From: Jiangella asiatica | Lineage (GTDB): Bacteria > Actinomycetota > Actinomycetes > Jiangellales > Jiangellaceae | Reading direction: 5' to 3' | NCBI RefSeq assembly: GCF_004349065.1 | Contig: NZ_SMKZ01000031.1 | Span: 1-64,000, forward strand | DNA: 64,000 nt | Shown: in pieces, positions 35,837 through 64,000 of the stretch | Layout of the letters: every line of letters starts with the position of its first letter | Position numbering within the stretch: position 1 is the first letter of the stretch | Notes under the pieces: model-generated | Database searches by the model: none | Seen by the model: only the letters and a program-made list of their open reading frames with translations | What the model was told of the DNA's origin: nothing | Made by a program: the position numbers and the translations under genes

Positions 35837-36646
35837 TCACCACCATGCTAAAGCCGTCGTCGTACCCGGTTCGACCTCGGTCAGTCCCCCGTCGCGCACG
35901 ACGACGCGCGCCCGCGCCGTGGCCGCCGCCCACTCGTGCGGGCGCACCGGGGCGAGCCGGGTCACGAACCGGCCGGCGGCCCACGCACGGCGCCGGCCGG
36001 CGGGCATGGCGTGCCAGGCCAGCTGCGCGGCGTGCCCGACCTGAGCGGCCGCCTTCCCGGCGGTCATGGTGACGGTCGGGTTGACGGCGACGACGAGCGC
36101 CGCGGGTTCCACCGCCGCGAACTCGACCACCGCGGCTGCGGGACCGGCTGCCGTGGGTTCGGTGACGGCGTCGGGCTCGTCGGCGACCTCGGTACCGCCG
36201 ACCTGCAGCTTGCGGACGGCGTCCGGCAGGGCGTCGACGGGTCCGGGCACCAGCGCGCGCACCCGCGCGGCACCGTGCTCGACGCTGACACCCGGCACGT
36301 CGGCCGTCCGCCGCCAGCCGATGCCGCGGGCGCGCCGGACCACCTTGCGGATCCAGCCGTCCTCGTACTGCCGCAGCGCCGCCACCCAGGCGGGGTCGGC
36401 GTCGTCGGCGTATCCGGCGTCGATCAACCCGGCGACGGCGGCGGCGACGGCTTCGAACAGCTCGGACCGGGTGGGCGGCTCGCCCTCCGGCGACCCCGAC
36501 CGAGGCAGGTGGACGACGATCTGCATCGCCCAGCCGGAATCCGGCTCCTCCGCGGCCGCACCGCCACGCGCCGTCGCGCCCACCGCGTCCGCCGCGTCCG
36601 CCGCCTCCGCCGTACCCGGTTCGGCGCCCGGGTCGGGCAGCGTCAC
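35837..36646 (-). CDS. PTH2-like peptidyl-tRNA hydrolase
   Basis: 269-residue protein. The final third carries the PTH2 pattern: [20 protein letters not shown] then GHAAQLAW, close to the family signature in which a Lys-containing helix precedes AAQxxHA. PTH2 enzymes release peptides from peptidyl-tRNA. The N-terminal 160 residues are an actinobacterial extension with an acidic Ala-rich start and no clear domain. The GTG overlaps the whiA stop by 4 nt. The position between whiA and gap is conserved in many actinobacteria. Activity is inferred from the motif. Confidence 0.75.
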
Positions 36647-37623
36647 GGCGCCAGCATCTCCGGGGTGAGGCTCGCCTCGGTGTCGGGGACGCCTTCATCG
36701 GCCGCCTTGCGGTCGGCCATCGCGAGCAGCCGGCGGATGCGGCCGGCGACGGCGTCCTTCGTCATCGGCGGATCGGAGAGCTGACCGAGCTCCTCGAGGC
36801 TGGCCTGCTTGTTCTCCAGGCGCAGCAGCCCGGCCGAGCGCAGGTGGTCGGGGACGTCGTCGCCGAGGATCTCCAGCGCCCGCTCGACCCGGGCACCCGC
36901 GGCGACGGCGGCTCGGGCGGAGCGACGCAGGTTGGCGTCGTCGAAGTTGGCCAGCCGGTTCGCCGTGGCGCGCACCTCGCGGCGCATCCGGCGCTCCTCC
37001 CAGGCCAGCACGCTGTCGTGGGCGCCGAGCCGGGTGAGCAGTGCGCCGATGGCGTCGCCGTCGCGCACGACCACCCGGTCGGTGCCGCGCACGTCGCGCG
37101 CCTTGGCCTGGATCTCCAGCCGCCGGGCCGCGCCGACCAGCGCCAGCGCCGCCTCCGGGCCGGGGCAGGTGACCTCGAGCGCGGACGACCGGCCGGGCTC
37201 GGTGAGCGAACCGTGCGCGAGGAACGCGCCGCGCCAAGCGGCCTCGGCGTCGTGGTCGGCGCCGTTGACCACCTGCGGCGGCAGCCCGCGGACGGGCCGG
37301 CCGCTGCCGTCGATCAGTCCGGTCTGGCGCGCCAGCCGCTCGCCGTCGCGAACCACCCGCACGACGTAGCGGCTGCCCTTGCGCAACCCCCCGGCAGAGA
37401 CGACAGCAACGTCGCTCTCGTGGCCGAACACCTCCGCAATGTCACGCCGCAACCTGCGGGCCGCGACCCCCGTATCCAGCTCGGCCTCGATGACGATCTT
37501 CCCGCTGACGATGTGCAGGCCGCCGCCGAAGCGCAACAGCGACGACACCTCGGCCTTGCGGCAGCACGTCTTGGTCACCTCGAGGCGAGCCAGCTCGTCC
37601 TTCACGGATGCTGTCATCGCCAT
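36643..37623 (-). CDS. whiA: Sporulation/cell-division regulator WhiA
   Basis: 326-residue DNA-binding protein combining an N-terminal LAGLIDADG-like fold with a C-terminal HTH. It starts [20 protein letters not shown], has [20 protein letters not shown] next, then the [15 protein letters not shown] part; the C-terminus has [20 protein letters not shown] in the HTH. It controls division and developmental genes in actinobacteria. The order yvcK-whiA-pth2-gap is conserved. A 119-bp gap with a strong hairpin separates it from yvcK. Confidence 0.95.
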
Positions 37624-37677: not shown

Positions 37678-37733
37678 CCATGATCATCAACGGTTGGCGA
37701 CGTCACAGCGTCGCCAACCCTTGATGATCATGG
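37678..37733. repeat. 25-bp stem inverted repeat between yvcK and whiA (family A, copy 1)
   Basis: Arms 37678-37702 and 37709-37733 (outer half ccatgatcatcaacggttgg) pair over 25 bp with one C-C mismatch and a 6-nt loop. A near-identical element lies at 62363-62420. Both copies sit 9-19 bp beyond the stop of a leftward gene (here yvcK). This could be a terminator working in both directions, or a dispersed palindromic repeat. Confidence 0.9.
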
Positions 37734-37742
37734 AAAACGCGG

Positions 37743-38756
37743 TCAGCGCCAGGGGCCGATGCCGCCCCGGCCCAGGGTGTCGGCGAACGCGCGGCCCAGC
37801 CGGTCGGGGTCGTGCCGCGCGGTGCCGTCGCCGACCGCGACGTCGGTGACGACCAGCTCGGCGCCCATCTCGCCGGCGATCCGGCGCAGCAGCTTCTCGT
37901 CGCGGCACGCCGACCGCTCGGCGATGACGAGGTCGATGCGCAGGTCGGGCGCGTACACGCCGAGCACCTCCAGGTGCATCTCAGGGGTGAAGCCGGTGGT
38001 CTCGCCGCCCTCCTCGGAGATGTTGAGCGTGACCGCCCGCCGCGCCGGCGCGGACACCAACGCGTCGCGCAGCTCCGGTACCAGCAGGTGCGGCACGACG
38101 CTGCTGAACCACGAGCCCGGCCCGAGCACGATCCAGTCGGCGTCGGCGATGGCGTCCAGCGCCTCCGGGCAGGCCGGCGGGCTCTCCGGGACCAGGCGGA
38201 CCGCGACGATGTCGCCGTCGACGGTGGCCACCGCGTGCTGGCCGGAGACGGTGGTGATCTCGCGCGGGGCGCCCGGACGGCCGGGCCGGCCGACCAGCGC
38301 CTCGATGTTCAGTGGCAGCAGCGACATGGGCAGCACCCGACCCTGGGCGCCGAGCAGCCGGCCCACCCAGTCCAGGCCCTCGACGTGCCCGCCCAGCAGC
38401 TCCCACAGTGCCACGATGAGCAGGTTGCCGGCGGCGTGGTTGTGCAGCTCGCCGCCGCTGGCGAACCGGTGCTGGAGCACCCGCGCCCAGGTGCGCCCCC
38501 AGTCGTCGTCGCCGCACAGCGCCGCCAGCGCCATCCGCAGGTCGCCAGGGGGCAGCACTCCCAGCTCGGAGCGCAGCCGCCCGCTGGACCCGCCGTCGTC
38601 GGCGACGGTGACGACGGCCGTCAGCCGCCCCGCCATGCGGCGCAGCGCCGCCAGCGACGCCGCCAGCCCGTGCCCGCCGCCGAGCGCGACCACCTTGGGG
38701 CCGGCCAGCCGGGGAGCCGTGCCGCGCCGGGCCGGGACCGGTGGCAGCGCGGTCAT
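37743..38756 (-). CDS. YvcK/CofD-like gluconeogenesis factor
   Basis: 337-residue protein of the CofD/YvcK family, which binds UDP-sugars and affects carbon source use and cell shape. It begins with the glycine-rich KVVALGGGHGLAASLAALR, followed by TVADDGGSSGRLR, ELHNHAAGNLLIVAL and ADWIVLGPGSWFSSVVPHLL, all family hallmarks. The ATG overlaps the rapZ stop. The order uvrC-rapZ-yvcK-whiA is typical for actinobacteria. It ends 10 bp from the family A hairpin. Confidence 0.93.
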   Translation of the reverse strand: MTALPPVPARRGTAPRLAGPKVVALGGGHGLAASLAALRRMAGRLTAVVTVADDGGSSGRLRSELGVLPPGDLRMALAALCGDDDWGRTWARVLQHRFASGGELHNHAAGNLLIVALWELLGGHVEGLDWVGRLLGAQGRVLPMSLLPLNIEALVGRPGRPGAPREITTVSGQHAVATVDGDIVAVRLVPESPPACPEALDAIADADWIVLGPGSWFSSVVPHLLVPELRDALVSAPARRAVTLNISEEGGETTGFTPEMHLEVLGVYAPDLRIDLVIAERSACRDEKLLRRIAGEMGAELVVTDVAVGDGTARHDPDRLGRAFADTLGRGGIGPWR

Positions 38757-45470: not shown

Positions 45471-45490
45471 CCGGCCACCACGTCATTGAT

Positions 45491-45531
45491 CATGATCGCT
45501 CGCGGTCGGTGGGAGACCGCGAGCGACCATG
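45491..45531. terminator. Bidirectional hairpin between convergent lipoprotein and Rieske genes
   Basis: Arms catgatcgctcgcggtc and gaccgcgagcgaccatg pair over 17 bp (one G-U type mismatch) around a 7-nt loop. It sits exactly between two convergent genes, 5-20 bp from each stop, the classic place for a shared terminator. The catgatc ends resemble family A repeats. Confidence 0.75.
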
Positions 45532-45536
45532 ACGTT

Positions 45537-58489: not shown

Positions 58490-58530
58490 AACGGCCCCGG
58501 TGCCGTCCTGTGGACGGGACCGGGGCCGTT
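58490..58530 (-). terminator. rpsA terminator hairpin
   Basis: aacggccccggt (58490-58501) pairs with accggggccgtt (58519-58530), and the inner ccgtcc with ggacgg extends the stem to about 18 bp with one mismatch and a 3-nt loop. It lies 28 bp after the rpsA stop. Very stable, without a U-tract. Confidence 0.8.
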
Positions 58531-60347: not shown

Positions 60348-62216
60348 TCAGTAGCGATGCACAGGGCCAGTGGAGTGGCCGTCCTCGTCGAACTCGTCGA
60401 AGACGTCATCGTCGTCGTCGCGGCCAGCGCGGGCCGGACGGGGCTCCGCCGCGGGCGGTCCGTGCTGCTCGGTGCGCGGTGCGGGCCGCCTCGGCTCGTC
60501 CTCCGGAACCGGCTGCGGCGCCGCGACAGGGCCCTGCTGTGGCTGTGGCTGTGGCTGTGGCTGCGGCTGCGGCTGCGGCTGGACCACCGGCCGCCGTGGG
60601 TCCTCCTCCGTCGGCGGCCACGCCAGTGGTTGCCCTACGTCTGGCTGACCTGGTCGCGTGGCCGGCTGAGGAGTGGGCGCCGGCTGAGCGTCCTGCTCGG
60701 CCGGCCGAGCTCGGCGCGTCGGTCGCGCCTGCGGCCGAGCCCGGCGCGCCGGTCGCGTCTCCGGCCGTGCGGCGGGCGCCTCCTGGACGGCAGGCGCCGC
60801 ATCCTCGGCAGGCACCGCACGAGCGGCCGGCAAAACCTCAGCGGCCGGCACCGGCTGCGCCGTGGGCGGCTGCGCCGTGGGCGCCTGCGCCGTGGGCGGC
60901 TGGGCGATGAGCGGCTGGGCCGCCGGCTGCGGTCGCTGCGCGAGACCGCGTCGTTGCAAGGGCGTGCGCTCGTCGGGCGGCCGGGAGACCGCCGCTGGCG
61001 CAGCGGCCTCAGTGGCGCGCCCTCCGGCCGGCTCGGCGTCCCGCCGCCCGGCCGGCTCGGCGTCCCGCCGCGCGACCGGCTCGGCGTCCCGTCGTGCCGG
61101 CGCCTGCGGCTCCCGGCGCGCGTACGCCTGGAGGTCCCGCCGACCGTCCGGCTCCGCGCCGTGGGCCGATACGTACGCCGCCGGTTCACCCATCCCGCCG
61201 CGGGTCGCAGCCGGCGCCGCGGGCCCGTCGGCATCGGCCGCCTCGAGCAGCGCGCGGCGCCGGCCCCGGTACGTCCGGCGCGCCAGCACGAAGCCGAGGA
61301 CGACGAGGGCGGCACCAGCCGCGAGCGCCGCCACCGGCCCCGTCGTGCGCACGATCTGCAGGGTGCGAGCCGTGCCCCTGTACTCGTCGACGTTGGCCGT
61401 GACCTGCTCGGGCGTGTAGCCGATGGTGCCTTCGACGATGCTGGGTCCCGGCTGGCCCTCGTACTCCAGGTAGCTGTGCTGTTCCTCCTGGCTATCGATG
61501 ATGGCGCCGGTGCGCGGCTCCACCCACAGCGTGCGCGTGTTGGAGTAGACGCGGTCGGCGACGACGGCGCCGCCGACGCCGAACAGATAGCCGGGTACCT
61601 CGAGCGCAGCGACCGGCGTGGGCTCGATCTCCTGCACGAACCGGTACACGTCGAGGCCCTCGATCGTGGTCTCGCCGTCGAACTCCAGCGGCCGGGTGTC
61701 CTGGATGGCGGAGTCCCAGAAGTCGTAGTCGCGCTGCTCGGTGCCGAAGGGGAGCTTGAAGAACTGGCCGGTGTGATCGACCTCGACGCGGTCGGCCCGC
61801 TCGCCGCTGGGGGTGTAGAACTGCCCGTGCCCGTCGACGGCCTCGCCGGAGAAGCGGTCGAAGGCGACCCGCTCCTCGAGGTAGGACAGCACGTTCTCCT
61901 CGGGGGTGGCGCCCTGGCCCAGCTCGTCGTAGGTGGTGACGCTGGTCTCCCAGACGGCGACGTCGTCGGTGCCGGCGCTGGTGTCGGGGACGATGCGCCG
62001 CACCGAGCGAACGTCGGTGGTGAGCTCGATCTGCCCCTGCTGCGACAGCACGGCGCCGAGGTCGAGGACGGCGACGTCGGTGCCGGCGGAGACGCGCTCA
62101 GCGGACTCGTCGGGCACCACGGCCATCCGCGGGTAGGCGTACCAGCGGGACAGCGGCGCCAGGACCAACAACAACACGCCCAGTCCGACCAGGACCAGGC
62201 CGATCGAGCGCCGCAT
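60348..62216 (-). CDS. DUF3068-type membrane protein with long low-complexity tail
   Basis: 622-residue protein. Residues 1-22 are a signal anchor, residues 25-315 form an external domain of the DUF3068 kind (GQIELTTDVRSVRRIVPDTS, FDFW-like FWDSAIQD and YRFVQEIEPTPV), and a second transmembrane segment follows near residue 318. Such proteins, sometimes called PorA-like, are found in actinobacteria. The final 290 residues are cytoplasmic, rich in Arg/Ala/Pro/Gln, with repeats of RRDAEPA and a (QP) run. Function unknown; the tail is probably disordered. It stops near the rpsA promoter. Confidence 0.82.
   Translation of the reverse strand: MRRSIGLVLVGLGVLLLVLAPLSRWYAYPRMAVVPDESAERVSAGTDVAVLDLGAVLSQQGQIELTTDVRSVRRIVPDTSAGTDDVAVWETSVTTYDELGQGATPEENVLSYLEERVAFDRFSGEAVDGHGQFYTPSGERADRVEVDHTGQFFKLPFGTEQRDYDFWDSAIQDTRPLEFDGETTIEGLDVYRFVQEIEPTPVAALEVPGYLFGVGGAVVADRVYSNTRTLWVEPRTGAIIDSQEEQHSYLEYEGQPGPSIVEGTIGYTPEQVTANVDEYRGTARTLQIVRTTGPVAALAAGAALVVLGFVLARRTYRGRRRALLEAADADGPAAPAATRGGMGEPAAYVSAHGAEPDGRRDLQAYARREPQAPARRDAEPVARRDAEPAGRRDAEPAGGRATEAAAPAAVSRPPDERTPLQRRGLAQRPQPAAQPLIAQPPTAQAPTAQPPTAQPVPAAEVLPAARAVPAEDAAPAVQEAPAARPETRPARRARPQARPTRRARPAEQDAQPAPTPQPATRPGQPDVGQPLAWPPTEEDPRRPVVQPQPQPQPQPQPQPQQGPVAAPQPVPEDEPRRPAPRTEQHGPPAAEPRPARAGRDDDDDVFDEFDEDGHSTGPVHRY
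60541..60582. repeat. Hexanucleotide tandem repeat (GGCTGT/GGCTGC)
   Basis: Seven 6-bp units (ggctgt three times, ggctgc three times, then ggctgg) encode the Gln-Pro run in the DUF3068 tail. It is a slippage-prone site that could vary in length between strains. Confidence 0.85.
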
Positions 62217-62362: not shown

Positions 62363-62420
62363 CCCATGATCATCAACTGTTGGCGACGCTATGACGTCGC
62401 CAACAGTTGATGATCATGGG
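62363..62420. repeat. 26-bp stem inverted repeat downstream of DJ-1 gene (family A, copy 2)
   Basis: Arms 62363-62388 and 62395-62420 pair perfectly over 26 bp with a 6-nt loop (ctatga). It matches the yvcK-whiA element except for the loop and one base pair, where G-C in copy 1 is T-A here (62378 with 62405), plus correction of the C-C mismatch. It lies 19 bp after the stop of the DJ-1 gene and 147 bp before the DUF3068 start. Confidence 0.9.
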
Positions 62421-62438: not shown

Positions 62439-63014
62439 TCACGACGTCGCCGCGGCCTGCGCGGGATGCATGCCCTCGGCGAACTCCTCGATCATCTTGG
62501 CGCAGAACGCCGGCAGGTCGTCGGGCTTGCGGCTGGTCACCAGGCCGTGGTCGGTGTGGACCTCCTCGTCGACCCAGGTGCCGCCGGCGTTGCGGATGTC
62601 GCTCTGCAGGCTCGGCCACGACGTCAGCGTGCGGCCCCGCACCACGTCGGCCTCGACGAGTGTCCACGGCGCGTGGCAGATGGCGGCCACCGGCTTGCCG
62701 GCGGTGAAGAACGACCTTGCGAACGCGACCGCCTCCGGGACCATGCGCAGCTGGTCCGGGTTGGCCACGCCGCCGGGCAGCATAAGAGCGTCGTAGTCGT
62801 CGGGGTCCGCGTCGGCGACGGCGTGGTCGACAGGGAACGCGTCGGCCTTGTCGAGGTGATTGAAGGCCTGGACCCGGCCGCCCTGGGGCGCGACGAGCTC
62901 CGCGCGGCCGCCGGCGTTCACGATCGCCTTCCACGGCTCGGTCAGCTCGATCTGCTCGACCCCCTCGTTCGCGACGAGGACCGCGACCCTCGTGCCGTCG
63001 ATGCGCTGGTCCAT
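62439..63014 (-). CDS. DJ-1/PfpI-family type 1 glutamine amidotransferase-like protein
   Basis: 191-residue protein. The nucleophile elbow is AAICHAPWTLVEA, with the reactive Cys next to His, and the conserved Glu lies in EQIELTEPWKA. LMLPGGVANPDQLR precedes it. The PfpI branch includes stress-induced deglycase- or protease-like proteins. ATG 63014 follows GGGAGGAG by 2-3 nt. Its first 24 codons overlap the end of the upstream membrane protein frame by 73 nt, an unusually long overlap. Confidence 0.92.
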   Translation of the reverse strand: MDQRIDGTRVAVLVANEGVEQIELTEPWKAIVNAGGRAELVAPQGGRVQAFNHLDKADAFPVDHAVADADPDDYDALMLPGGVANPDQLRMVPEAVAFARSFFTAGKPVAAICHAPWTLVEADVVRGRTLTSWPSLQSDIRNAGGTWVDEEVHTDHGLVTSRKPDDLPAFCAKMIEEFAEGMHPAQAAATS

Positions 63015-64000
63015 GTCTCCTCCCTTCGCGGTTCGGACGTGCCTACCGTCGGCCGGTACCCGGAGCGGTGCGTCCCATTCGGGGCAGGGCCGGACTGGTC
63101 GGGGCCGAACATGGAATCGATGGTCACGAACTGCTCGTCGTCGACGACGGTGCCCGGCCGCTGCCAGGCGACCGCGCCGATGACCGCGATCGCGACCGCC
63201 ACGAGCACGAGCACCTGCGCCGTGCCGGAGTGGGCGCCGGGATCCGGTCCCGGCCAGGGCCGCAGCGCGACCACGAATCCGGCGAGCAGGACGGCGACGG
63301 CGGCCAGGGCGGGCGCCAGCCGGGTCAGCCACGGCCGCCGCGGCCCGGCGAGCAGGACCGCGGCACCGACGGCCGCGGCCAGCACGCCCGCGACGCCGCC
63401 CAGCAGGAACAGCGCCGCCGTACCGACGACGATCACGGGTGCGGCGCGCTGCCTGCGGTGCCGCGCCGGGTAGGCGCCCGCACGCTGCGCGGGGATCGCC
63501 GACGGCACCGGCGGAACCCGGGTGCCGCGCCAGGCCGCGAGCGCCACGAGGAGCACGCCGAGCGGGCCGGCGGCCAGGGCGAGCCGGTACGGCTGGTCCG
63601 GCGCGTACGTCAGCTCGACGACGCCGGCCGGCCCGACCGGCAGCACGAAGCCCTGCGCCCAGCCGTCCAGCCGGACCGGCCGCAGCGACCGCCCGTCCAG
63701 CGTCGCCTCCCACCCGGGGTTCAGGTTCTCGGCGACGGCCAACACGGCCGGGGTCTCGCGGGCGGCGACGGCGACCTCGCGGCTGGTCGGCTCCCACGAC
63801 TGGACGGCCACGTCGGGCGCGTCGGGTGCCGGGGCGGGCTCGTCGAGCGGGCGCAGCGTCACCGACTCCGGCCGGGTGTGCGCGGTGGCCTCCAGGGTGA
63901 TGTCGTGGCTGCCCTCGTCCAGGGCGATGACGTCGTCGTCGCATGGCACCGCCTCGAGCCGGCGCCCGTGCAGCAGGTCACCCACCGTCGCGGCCACCCT
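62942..64000 (-). CDS. Arabinofuranosyltransferase (AftD-like) C-terminal part, partial
   Basis: C-terminal 352 codons of a larger protein that begins beyond the right edge. The external domain has LTPGW-type features, here VAENLNPGWEATLDGRSLRP and VRLDGWAQGFVLP, followed by four transmembrane segments, as seen at the end of DUF3367/AftD-like alpha-(1,3)-arabinofuranosyltransferases that build cell-wall arabinan. The last 40 residues are Ser/Arg-rich and overlap the DJ-1 gene by 73 nt, so the real end may differ. Family call is moderate because the catalytic part is not visible. Confidence 0.65.
   Translation of the reverse strand, partial: RVAATVGDLLHGRRLEAVPCDDDVIALDEGSHDITLEATAHTRPESVTLRPLDEPAPAPDAPDVAVQSWEPTSREVAVAARETPAVLAVAENLNPGWEATLDGRSLRPVRLDGWAQGFVLPVGPAGVVELTYAPDQPYRLALAAGPLGVLLVALAAWRGTRVPPVPSAIPAQRAGAYPARHRRQRAAPVIVVGTAALFLLGGVAGVLAAAVGAAVLLAGPRRPWLTRLAPALAAVAVLLAGFVVALRPWPGPDPGAHSGTAQVLVLVAVAIAVIGAVAWQRPGTVVDDEQFVTIDSMFGPDQSGPAPNGTHRSGYRPTVGTSEPRREETWTSASTARGSRSSSRTRGSSRSS

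Follow-up and report, generated by a model that had tools for sequence, protein, structure and literature searches.

What maintains the two long palindromes that stand about 25 kb apart in the window, the whole stretch of 64,000 nucleotides of Jiangella asiatica DNA analysed here? A sequence-only reading described both as a 25-bp stem with a 6-nt loop, differing at one paired position, and concluded that the hairpin rather than the primary sequence is maintained. Both elements were found in place (Table 1), and the differing pair was borne out at stem position 15, which is G-C in copy 1 and T-A in copy 2. The common geometry held in part: the 25-bp stem of copy 1 is 96% complementary, with a previously unreported C opposite C at stem position 14, whereas copy 2 has a 26-bp stem with no mismatch and the same 6-nt loop length. 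A third copy on the same contig, ~4.1 kb beyond the window end (C59:68149-68200), has a further compensated pair, C-G against T-A in the others. Folded on either strand, both window copies lie below dinucleotide shuffles with z of -9.6 to -11.6, and they are the longest and strongest near-perfect inverted repeats within the window. Three hairpins in the window combine arms of 20 or more with no more than two mismatches, against none in five shuffles, and the half-site ATGATCATCAA occurs there in four exact matches and one with a single mismatch, where 0.09 would be expected. Across the whole window, no match to an Rfam RNA family scored above its gathering score. Two more near-perfect hairpins, of unrelated sequence, lie at 58490-58530 and 45490-45532 (19- and 18-nt arms, respectively).

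Table 1. Positions of the two palindromes and of the genes beside them in the window.
Feature	Position	Strand	Description
Solo palindrome copy 1	37678..37733	.	25-nt arms 37678-37702 and 37709-37733, loop tcacag, one C-C mismatch, GGTTGGCGACG type
Solo palindrome copy 2	62363..62420	.	26-nt arms, loop ctatga, perfect, GGTTGGCGACG type
yvcK (CofD-like)	37743..38756	-	Stop ~10 bp from copy 1; context only
whiA	36643..37623	-	Same-strand gene on the far side of copy 1; context only
ORF with C-terminal DJ-1/PfpI domain (true start uncertain)	62439..63944	-	Stop ~19 bp from copy 2; context only
PorA/PgfA-like gene	60348..62216	-	Same strand, far side of copy 2; context only

The genome-wide search that the earlier reading proposed rules out that only two copies exist. 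In the genome of the window (G000; 7.03 Mb in 134 contigs), 44 sites match the strict pattern ATGATCATCAA-N-TTGATGATCAT and 95 the relaxed pattern TGATCAT-N34-38-ATGATCA, with no match to the reversed-pattern control in either case. Fifty listed places of the relaxed 95 were classified by reading, giving 35 with the GGTTGGCGACG inner arm, 12 with GATCTCGGGTG, one resembling GATCTCGGGTG, one with GTTCCCT and one chance match. The strict pattern is present in 16 of 22 genomes of the family Jiangellaceae and in all 12 of the genus, and the named records among the matches listed belong to Jiangella, Haloactinopolyspora and Phytoactinopolyspora. One copy lies at a contig end in a metagenome bin labelled Gammaproteobacteria (L092; JAOUIH010000136.1, 6-58), reflecting either transfer or a binning error. 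The element is ~56 bp long and its ends read CCATGATCATC...GATGATCATGG; the outer arm CATGATCATC is nearly fixed, and the inner arm occurs in many unrelated versions, which nonetheless pair.

Three close palindrome pairs, in three genomes and at unrelated places, enclose the same gene, of ~1 kb. Its product is ~313-350 residues long and carries an N-terminal AbiEi_4 winged helix, and PADLOC, like Pfam, names this part by AbiEi models. For single close members, the match to DUF559 is no more than weak (E 0.046 and 0.1). When 44 members were scanned one by one at E no higher than 0.1, AbiEi_4 was matched by 39, DUF559 by 27, MTES_1575 by 20 and Vsr by two, and none of the 44 matched a transposase family, including the IS200/IS605-type Y1 (HUH) families. 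The profile built from these 44 members matches 9hlo_A (AbiGI) and 6y8q_A (abortive phage infection protein) in its N-terminal part and 3hrl_A, an endonuclease-like protein, in its C-terminal part (E 4.6e-10); it also matches 3r3p_A, a mobile intron protein (E 0.0066) which we take to be I-Bth0305I. Among 106 aligned members, D229 is kept in all 106, E240, H247 and E198 in 105 each, S195 in 103, R258 in 102, D255 in 98 and D242 in 97. The C-terminal part is thus predicted to be an EDxHD/Vsr-like nuclease domain in which the putative catalytic residues (D229, E240, H247, D255 and R258) are retained, as judged from these alignments and the matches to 3hrl_A and 3r3p_A. An AlphaFold model from two sequences reached a pLDDT of 42, too poor for use.

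The full unit spans ~1.1-1.2 kb and runs palindrome, DnaA-box-like site, one gene, palindrome. With the relaxed detector, palindromes were found on both flanks in 41 of the 63 loci of close homologues, compared with 0 of 3000 reversed windows; at the other 22, one or both palindromes were missed by the detector, some being degenerate by eye and some loci having broken genes. A motif-free alignment of the upstream against the downstream flank gave a score of at least 40 in 49 of 58 close homologues, 11 of 20 distant same-family homologues and 9 of 27 phylum-wide homologues. The corresponding figures are 0/54, 0/19 and 0/21 when the flanks are shifted by 700 bp, and 77/568, 7/184 and 1/258 for shuffled partners. 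Distant members have palindromes unrelated in sequence to those of the window; in G037, from elsewhere in the phylum, a different palindrome stands in exact copy on either side of the gene and has about a dozen further sites (control 0). Five other close palindrome pairs (L003, L004, L019, L061 and L197) have no homologue of the nuclease gene, with sizes of 558, 925, 1032, 1284 and 1495 bp.

The type of palindrome goes with the type of gene. In G000 there are two close copies of the gene, one for each abundant palindrome type. Over 40 units, protein distance and palindrome distance are correlated (Mantel r 0.66, 0 of 2000 permutations), and in 30 of the 40 the unit's own downstream palindrome is nearest or joint nearest to the upstream one. 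On the protein tree of 57 units, with palindrome types labelled by hand, the 17 types need 19 changes, where the minimum is 16 and the shuffled mean 44.2 (0 of 200 shuffles). For the 42 rows at shared sites, the tree needs 13 changes for eight site labels compared with 12 for 12 palindrome types, so that the gene retains its type of palindrome and switches site. Taken together, these comparisons show palindromes that match each other within a unit, differ between units and follow the protein phylogeny. A lone GTTCCCT-type palindrome lies at G000:C63:13554-13602 (L325), and no gene of GTTCCCT type was found in G000. Its position is not orthologous to that of the GTTCCCT units, the alignment being confined to the palindrome.

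The gene-bearing units have a further, nearly constant part. Within 200 bp upstream of the gene, the 9-mer TTGTCCACA or TTATCCACA occurs exactly in 38 of 57 units and with at most one mismatch in 55 of 57, with none in the control stretches; it sits just inside the upstream palindrome, mostly at a spacing of 3 or 17 bp. The 9-mer accompanies 19 of 20 distant homologues (controls 2 and 1) and 6 of 28 phylum-wide ones (controls 0 and 1), against a background of two matches in 626,659 bp. Solo elements have such a site within 60 bp in 1 of 128 cases. In Streptomyces coelicolor and Mycobacterium tuberculosis, TTGTCCACA is reported as the DnaA box of high affinity (PMC4285127). Pairs of TTGTCCACA were tried as a marker of the origin and rejected, with just three tight pairs in G000 and none visibly at dnaA; the DnaA-box reading therefore rests on that published box. 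From this motif, we infer that the element may be under the control of DnaA. At L326 (G000:C35, ~124105), one of the three tight pairs stands upstream of a distant AbiEi/nuclease gene, which adjoins a cysteinyl-tRNA-synthetase-like gene (named by reading).

Comparison of genomes gave a picture of units that change at fixed sites. Grouping the 63 loci by position gives 23 sites, of which 13 are represented by one locus each. At the metG site, the region is present in 19 genomes and the unit in six, with the gene broken in G009, and the six genomes divide equally between the two orientations of the unit. In G010 the flanks are as in G000, which holds the unit, but a single degenerate palindrome is present (found by eye and missed by the detector); in G017 there is one palindrome, and the remaining eleven genomes gave no detector hit, with degenerate or shorter palindromes seen by reading in G020, G019 and G002. 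At this site G014 has 18 bp where G005 has the 1.1-kb unit, between flanks that are 95% and 99% identical. At another site the flanks of G005 and G014 are 97% identical and the units are of different type. When seven solo palindromes of G005 were compared with G014, three were cleanly missing, one (L293) was present and three could not be clearly read. No target-site duplication is evident at the three clean presence/absence sites, where the flanks differ by small indels. By comparison of the same site among genomes, units are present, absent, inverted, reduced to one palindrome or exchanged.

These observations suggest an answer to the question raised by the window. We consider it likely that its palindromes represent a mobile selfish element in its short, non-autonomous form, and that the full form carries the gene for the AbiEi winged helix and EDxHD/Vsr/DUF559-type nuclease. 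The association of gene and palindrome, their co-divergence and the dynamics at sites are all shown by comparison of sequences; from these, we infer cutting and dimerisation by the nuclease protein. The protein, probably as a dimer, would recognise its own ~56-bp palindrome, either double-stranded or folded into a hairpin that is extruded as the DNA replicates, and would nick or cut this cognate target. Repair from another copy could then spread the palindrome alone, giving solo copies, or the whole unit, which would home into a palindrome already in place. If the two palindromes of a unit recombine with each other, the gene may be deleted, with one palindrome left behind, or may be inverted, and through the DnaA-box-like site the element's expression or action may be coupled to replication. 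Since free cutting of ~95 chromosomal sites would be lethal, cutting must be restricted somehow; our guess is that it is confined to hairpins extruded at the fork, which would suit the DnaA-box-like site. As part of the same likely account, the two window copies would be solo elements that came to rest, without harm, directly after stop codons. Several observations count against the selfish-element account: no obvious target-site duplication was seen at the three clean sites, the flank test is passed by only nine of the 27 phylum-wide homologues, the detector missed one or both palindromes in 22 of the 63 loci, and some palindrome types, such as the GTTCCCT copy in G000, were found without a resident gene. 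In addition, the single palindrome at metG in G010, being degenerate, might be what a deletion left behind to decay and not a target.

The compensated change that first drew attention to the two window copies is genuine but, taken by itself, weak evidence. In 45 distinct copies of the window type in G000, 95.2% of cells are paired, and the covariation score of 0.050 compared with 0.030 is reached by 0 of 500 shuffles. The covariation alignment proposed by the sequence-only reading is favourable on this score, but pairs with both sides changed number two against 2.6 expected (445 of 500 shuffles are as high), and at those two pairs there are 11 both-changed cells versus 19 broken ones. Compensation within a palindrome type is real but modest, and one compensated pair cannot carry the conclusion that the hairpin is what is maintained, although that conclusion gains from the comparison between gene-linked types, in which the inner arm is fully replaced yet still pairs. 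Pairing also extends at least 8 bp into the locus-specific flank in 7 of 170 distinct elements, compared with ~0.6 for shuffled flanks, and runs of 10 bp occur in 4 of the 170 where 0.04 would be expected. This points to DNA-level templated copying between the arms as one source of matched changes. Templated palindrome repair, or the copying of a mobile element, would also yield matched changes without selection at the RNA level, so that compensated changes in bacterial palindromes need not imply such selection. It is even conceivable, if rather unlikely in our view, that strand-switch copying in the course of replication, or templated quasi-palindrome repair, produced the compensations, with no part for selection on the structure or for any enzyme. 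The flank pairing and the modest covariation both favour this explanation, which accounts for matched arms but not for dispersal, cognate gene types or unit swaps; as it concerns the compensations only, it may hold together with the selfish-element account.

A different view would be that the nuclease moves nothing. The palindromes would then be operators or terminators of an AbiE-like defence gene, the units would travel by horizontal transfer and homologous recombination, and the solo copies would be remnants of deletion. The AbiEi calls of PADLOC and Pfam for the N-terminal part agree with such a gene, the single palindrome of G010 where G000 has a unit agrees with deletion, and inversions are explained by recombination between palindromes. 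The numbers speak otherwise: G000 holds ~95 palindromes and two close gene copies, and the DnaA-box-like site of the units accompanies almost none of the solos, so that the typical solo does not resemble what a unit would leave behind. There are also sites whose flanks are nearly identical and between which an element has left no trace, and we regard this view as improbable.

The position of the window copies raises the possibility that the hairpins are bidirectional transcription terminators or stabilisers of mRNA 3′ ends, which also border the nuclease gene and spread passively. The sequence-only reading had each element just past the stop of a leftward gene, and this was confirmed for yvcK and for the DJ-1/PfpI ORF. 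The context of 26 distinct G000 copies, assigned with a simple gene caller, was convergent for eight, co-directional for 13, divergent for four and unclear for one; none lies inside a gene, and most have one or two gene 3′ ends within 40 bp. The hairpins are very stable, and the TRIT elements of M. tuberculosis, species-specific repeat terminators, offer a precedent. Against this, neither window hairpin gave a terminator-like call (stem plus T-run), and some copies lie between divergent genes, the raw count of four including window copy 2, which the caller misassigned and which is actually co-directional. Presence at the same gene end is not conserved either: among 17 genomes read, the yvcK-whiA gap has the window-type palindrome in G000 alone, and the nearest relative, G010, has no palindrome between these genes. 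The terminator role implied by the sequence-only reading is thus not upheld, and a conserved terminator was rejected as a full account given the missing T-tract, the variable presence and the divergent contexts. Palindrome types specific to a gene would also stay unexplained, and overall we find the terminator explanation decidedly improbable. It is highly improbable that the palindromes are MITE-like relics that owe their movement to a conventional transposase with its gene elsewhere: they are short, dispersed, palindromic, intergenic and polymorphic in presence, but the gene that recurs between paired copies is the nuclease (a count that is biased, as most paired loci were fetched for that gene), and the three clean sites, whose flanks differ by small indels, show no obvious target-site duplication.

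By reading, several other genomes have palindromes of two other families in the yvcK-whiA gap. One is a family of ~72 bp, GTTGATCTTGGAG...CTCCAAGATCAAC, seen in this gap in G006, G008, G011, G012 and G015 (L204, L206, L208, L209 and L212) and found in 12 of 22 family genomes with up to 91 copies each, seven of them in G000. A phylum-level homologue with a DUF559-type gene (L262, G225) is flanked by GATCTTGGAGG / GGATCTTGGAGG palindromes that resemble this family. The third repeat, CCGTCCCCCTGATAGCTGCCCGTTCT, recurs at several sites in different relatives, with examples in the gap of G009 and G013 (L211 and L202) and in the flank of L291.

How far the selfish-element account extends beyond the family is a separate matter. 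We propose tentatively, at somewhat less than an even chance, that there is a phylum-wide class of elements in Actinomycetota in which an AbiEi winged-helix and EDxHD/Vsr-type nuclease replaces the known transposases or recombinases. Such an enzyme would act on lineage-specific palindromes of ~45-60 bp, perhaps as hairpins at the fork, and spread them in dozens of solo copies, while homing units swap at sites and a DnaA box ties the element to replication. Were this class real, many genes labelled 'AbiEi antitoxin' or 'DUF559' would be selfish elements. If the account given for the window is right, a widespread and misnamed AbiEi/DUF559 family would supply the enzyme for selfish elements of a group so far undescribed, and a cause would be found for many palindromic repeats in actinobacteria that now lack an explanation. 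The REP/RAYT life style would have been reached with an unrelated nuclease. Dozens of enzyme-palindrome pairs would become available, with a co-divergence from which recognition could be read, and the link between a mobile element and DnaA would be testable.

Finally, we compared the Jiangella element with known systems. TRIT likewise has copies of a hairpin at the ends of actinobacterial genes, but the Jiangella palindrome has no T-tract, is bound to a nuclease gene and is present or absent at the same gene end. The N-terminal winged helix resembles that of the AbiE antitoxin AbiEi (AbiEi_4 39/44, PADLOC, 6y8q_A and 9hlo_A); unlike AbiEi, the protein has a C-terminal nuclease domain, and the unit holds one gene only, so it has no AbiEii partner within it. 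Domain matches and the conserved acidic and histidine residues are shared with the Vsr, DUF559 and MTES_1575 nucleases, which differ in that the Jiangella gene has the added AbiEi-type N-terminal domain and palindromic ends, with no methyltransferase seen inside the unit. The EDxHD homing endonuclease I-Bth0305I belongs to the same nuclease superfamily by profile, and unit swaps with presence or absence at fixed sites are comparative hints of homing. I-Bth0305I is reported to dimerise on DNA over a length of nearly 60 bp (PMC3943268), which is similar to the 56 bp of the palindrome, and by analogy such a long dimeric target would fit recognition of the palindrome described here. Unlike genes of the I-Bth0305I type, the Jiangella gene is free-standing, in neither an intron nor an intein, and is bracketed by two copies of its putative target in addition to dozens of solo targets.

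The closest likeness in life style is to REP/RAYT systems (REPtrons and REPINs). These comprise many intergenic palindromes, often near gene 3′ ends, and a gene family flanked by its cognate palindromes, with repeat-specific gene types in genomes that have several families (PMC3733652, PMC3116915), and a REP repeat has a GTAG (or CGTC) tag at one end (PMC3733652). The Jiangella element likewise combines many intergenic palindromes with a gene of its own flanked by cognate ones and with repeat-specific gene types. In contrast to REP/RAYT, its gene encodes an AbiEi winged helix with an EDxHD/Vsr/DUF559-type nuclease and no IS200/IS605-type tyrosine transposase, its palindrome of ~56 bp has CATGATCATC arms and no terminal GTAG/CGTC tag, and a DnaA-box-like site belongs to the unit. 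An association of these palindromes with a nuclease gene was not found described in the open-access literature. What emerges from the comparison is a REP/RAYT-like selfish system that looks previously undescribed in actinobacteria and that would be built on a non-homologous, homing-endonuclease-like enzyme.
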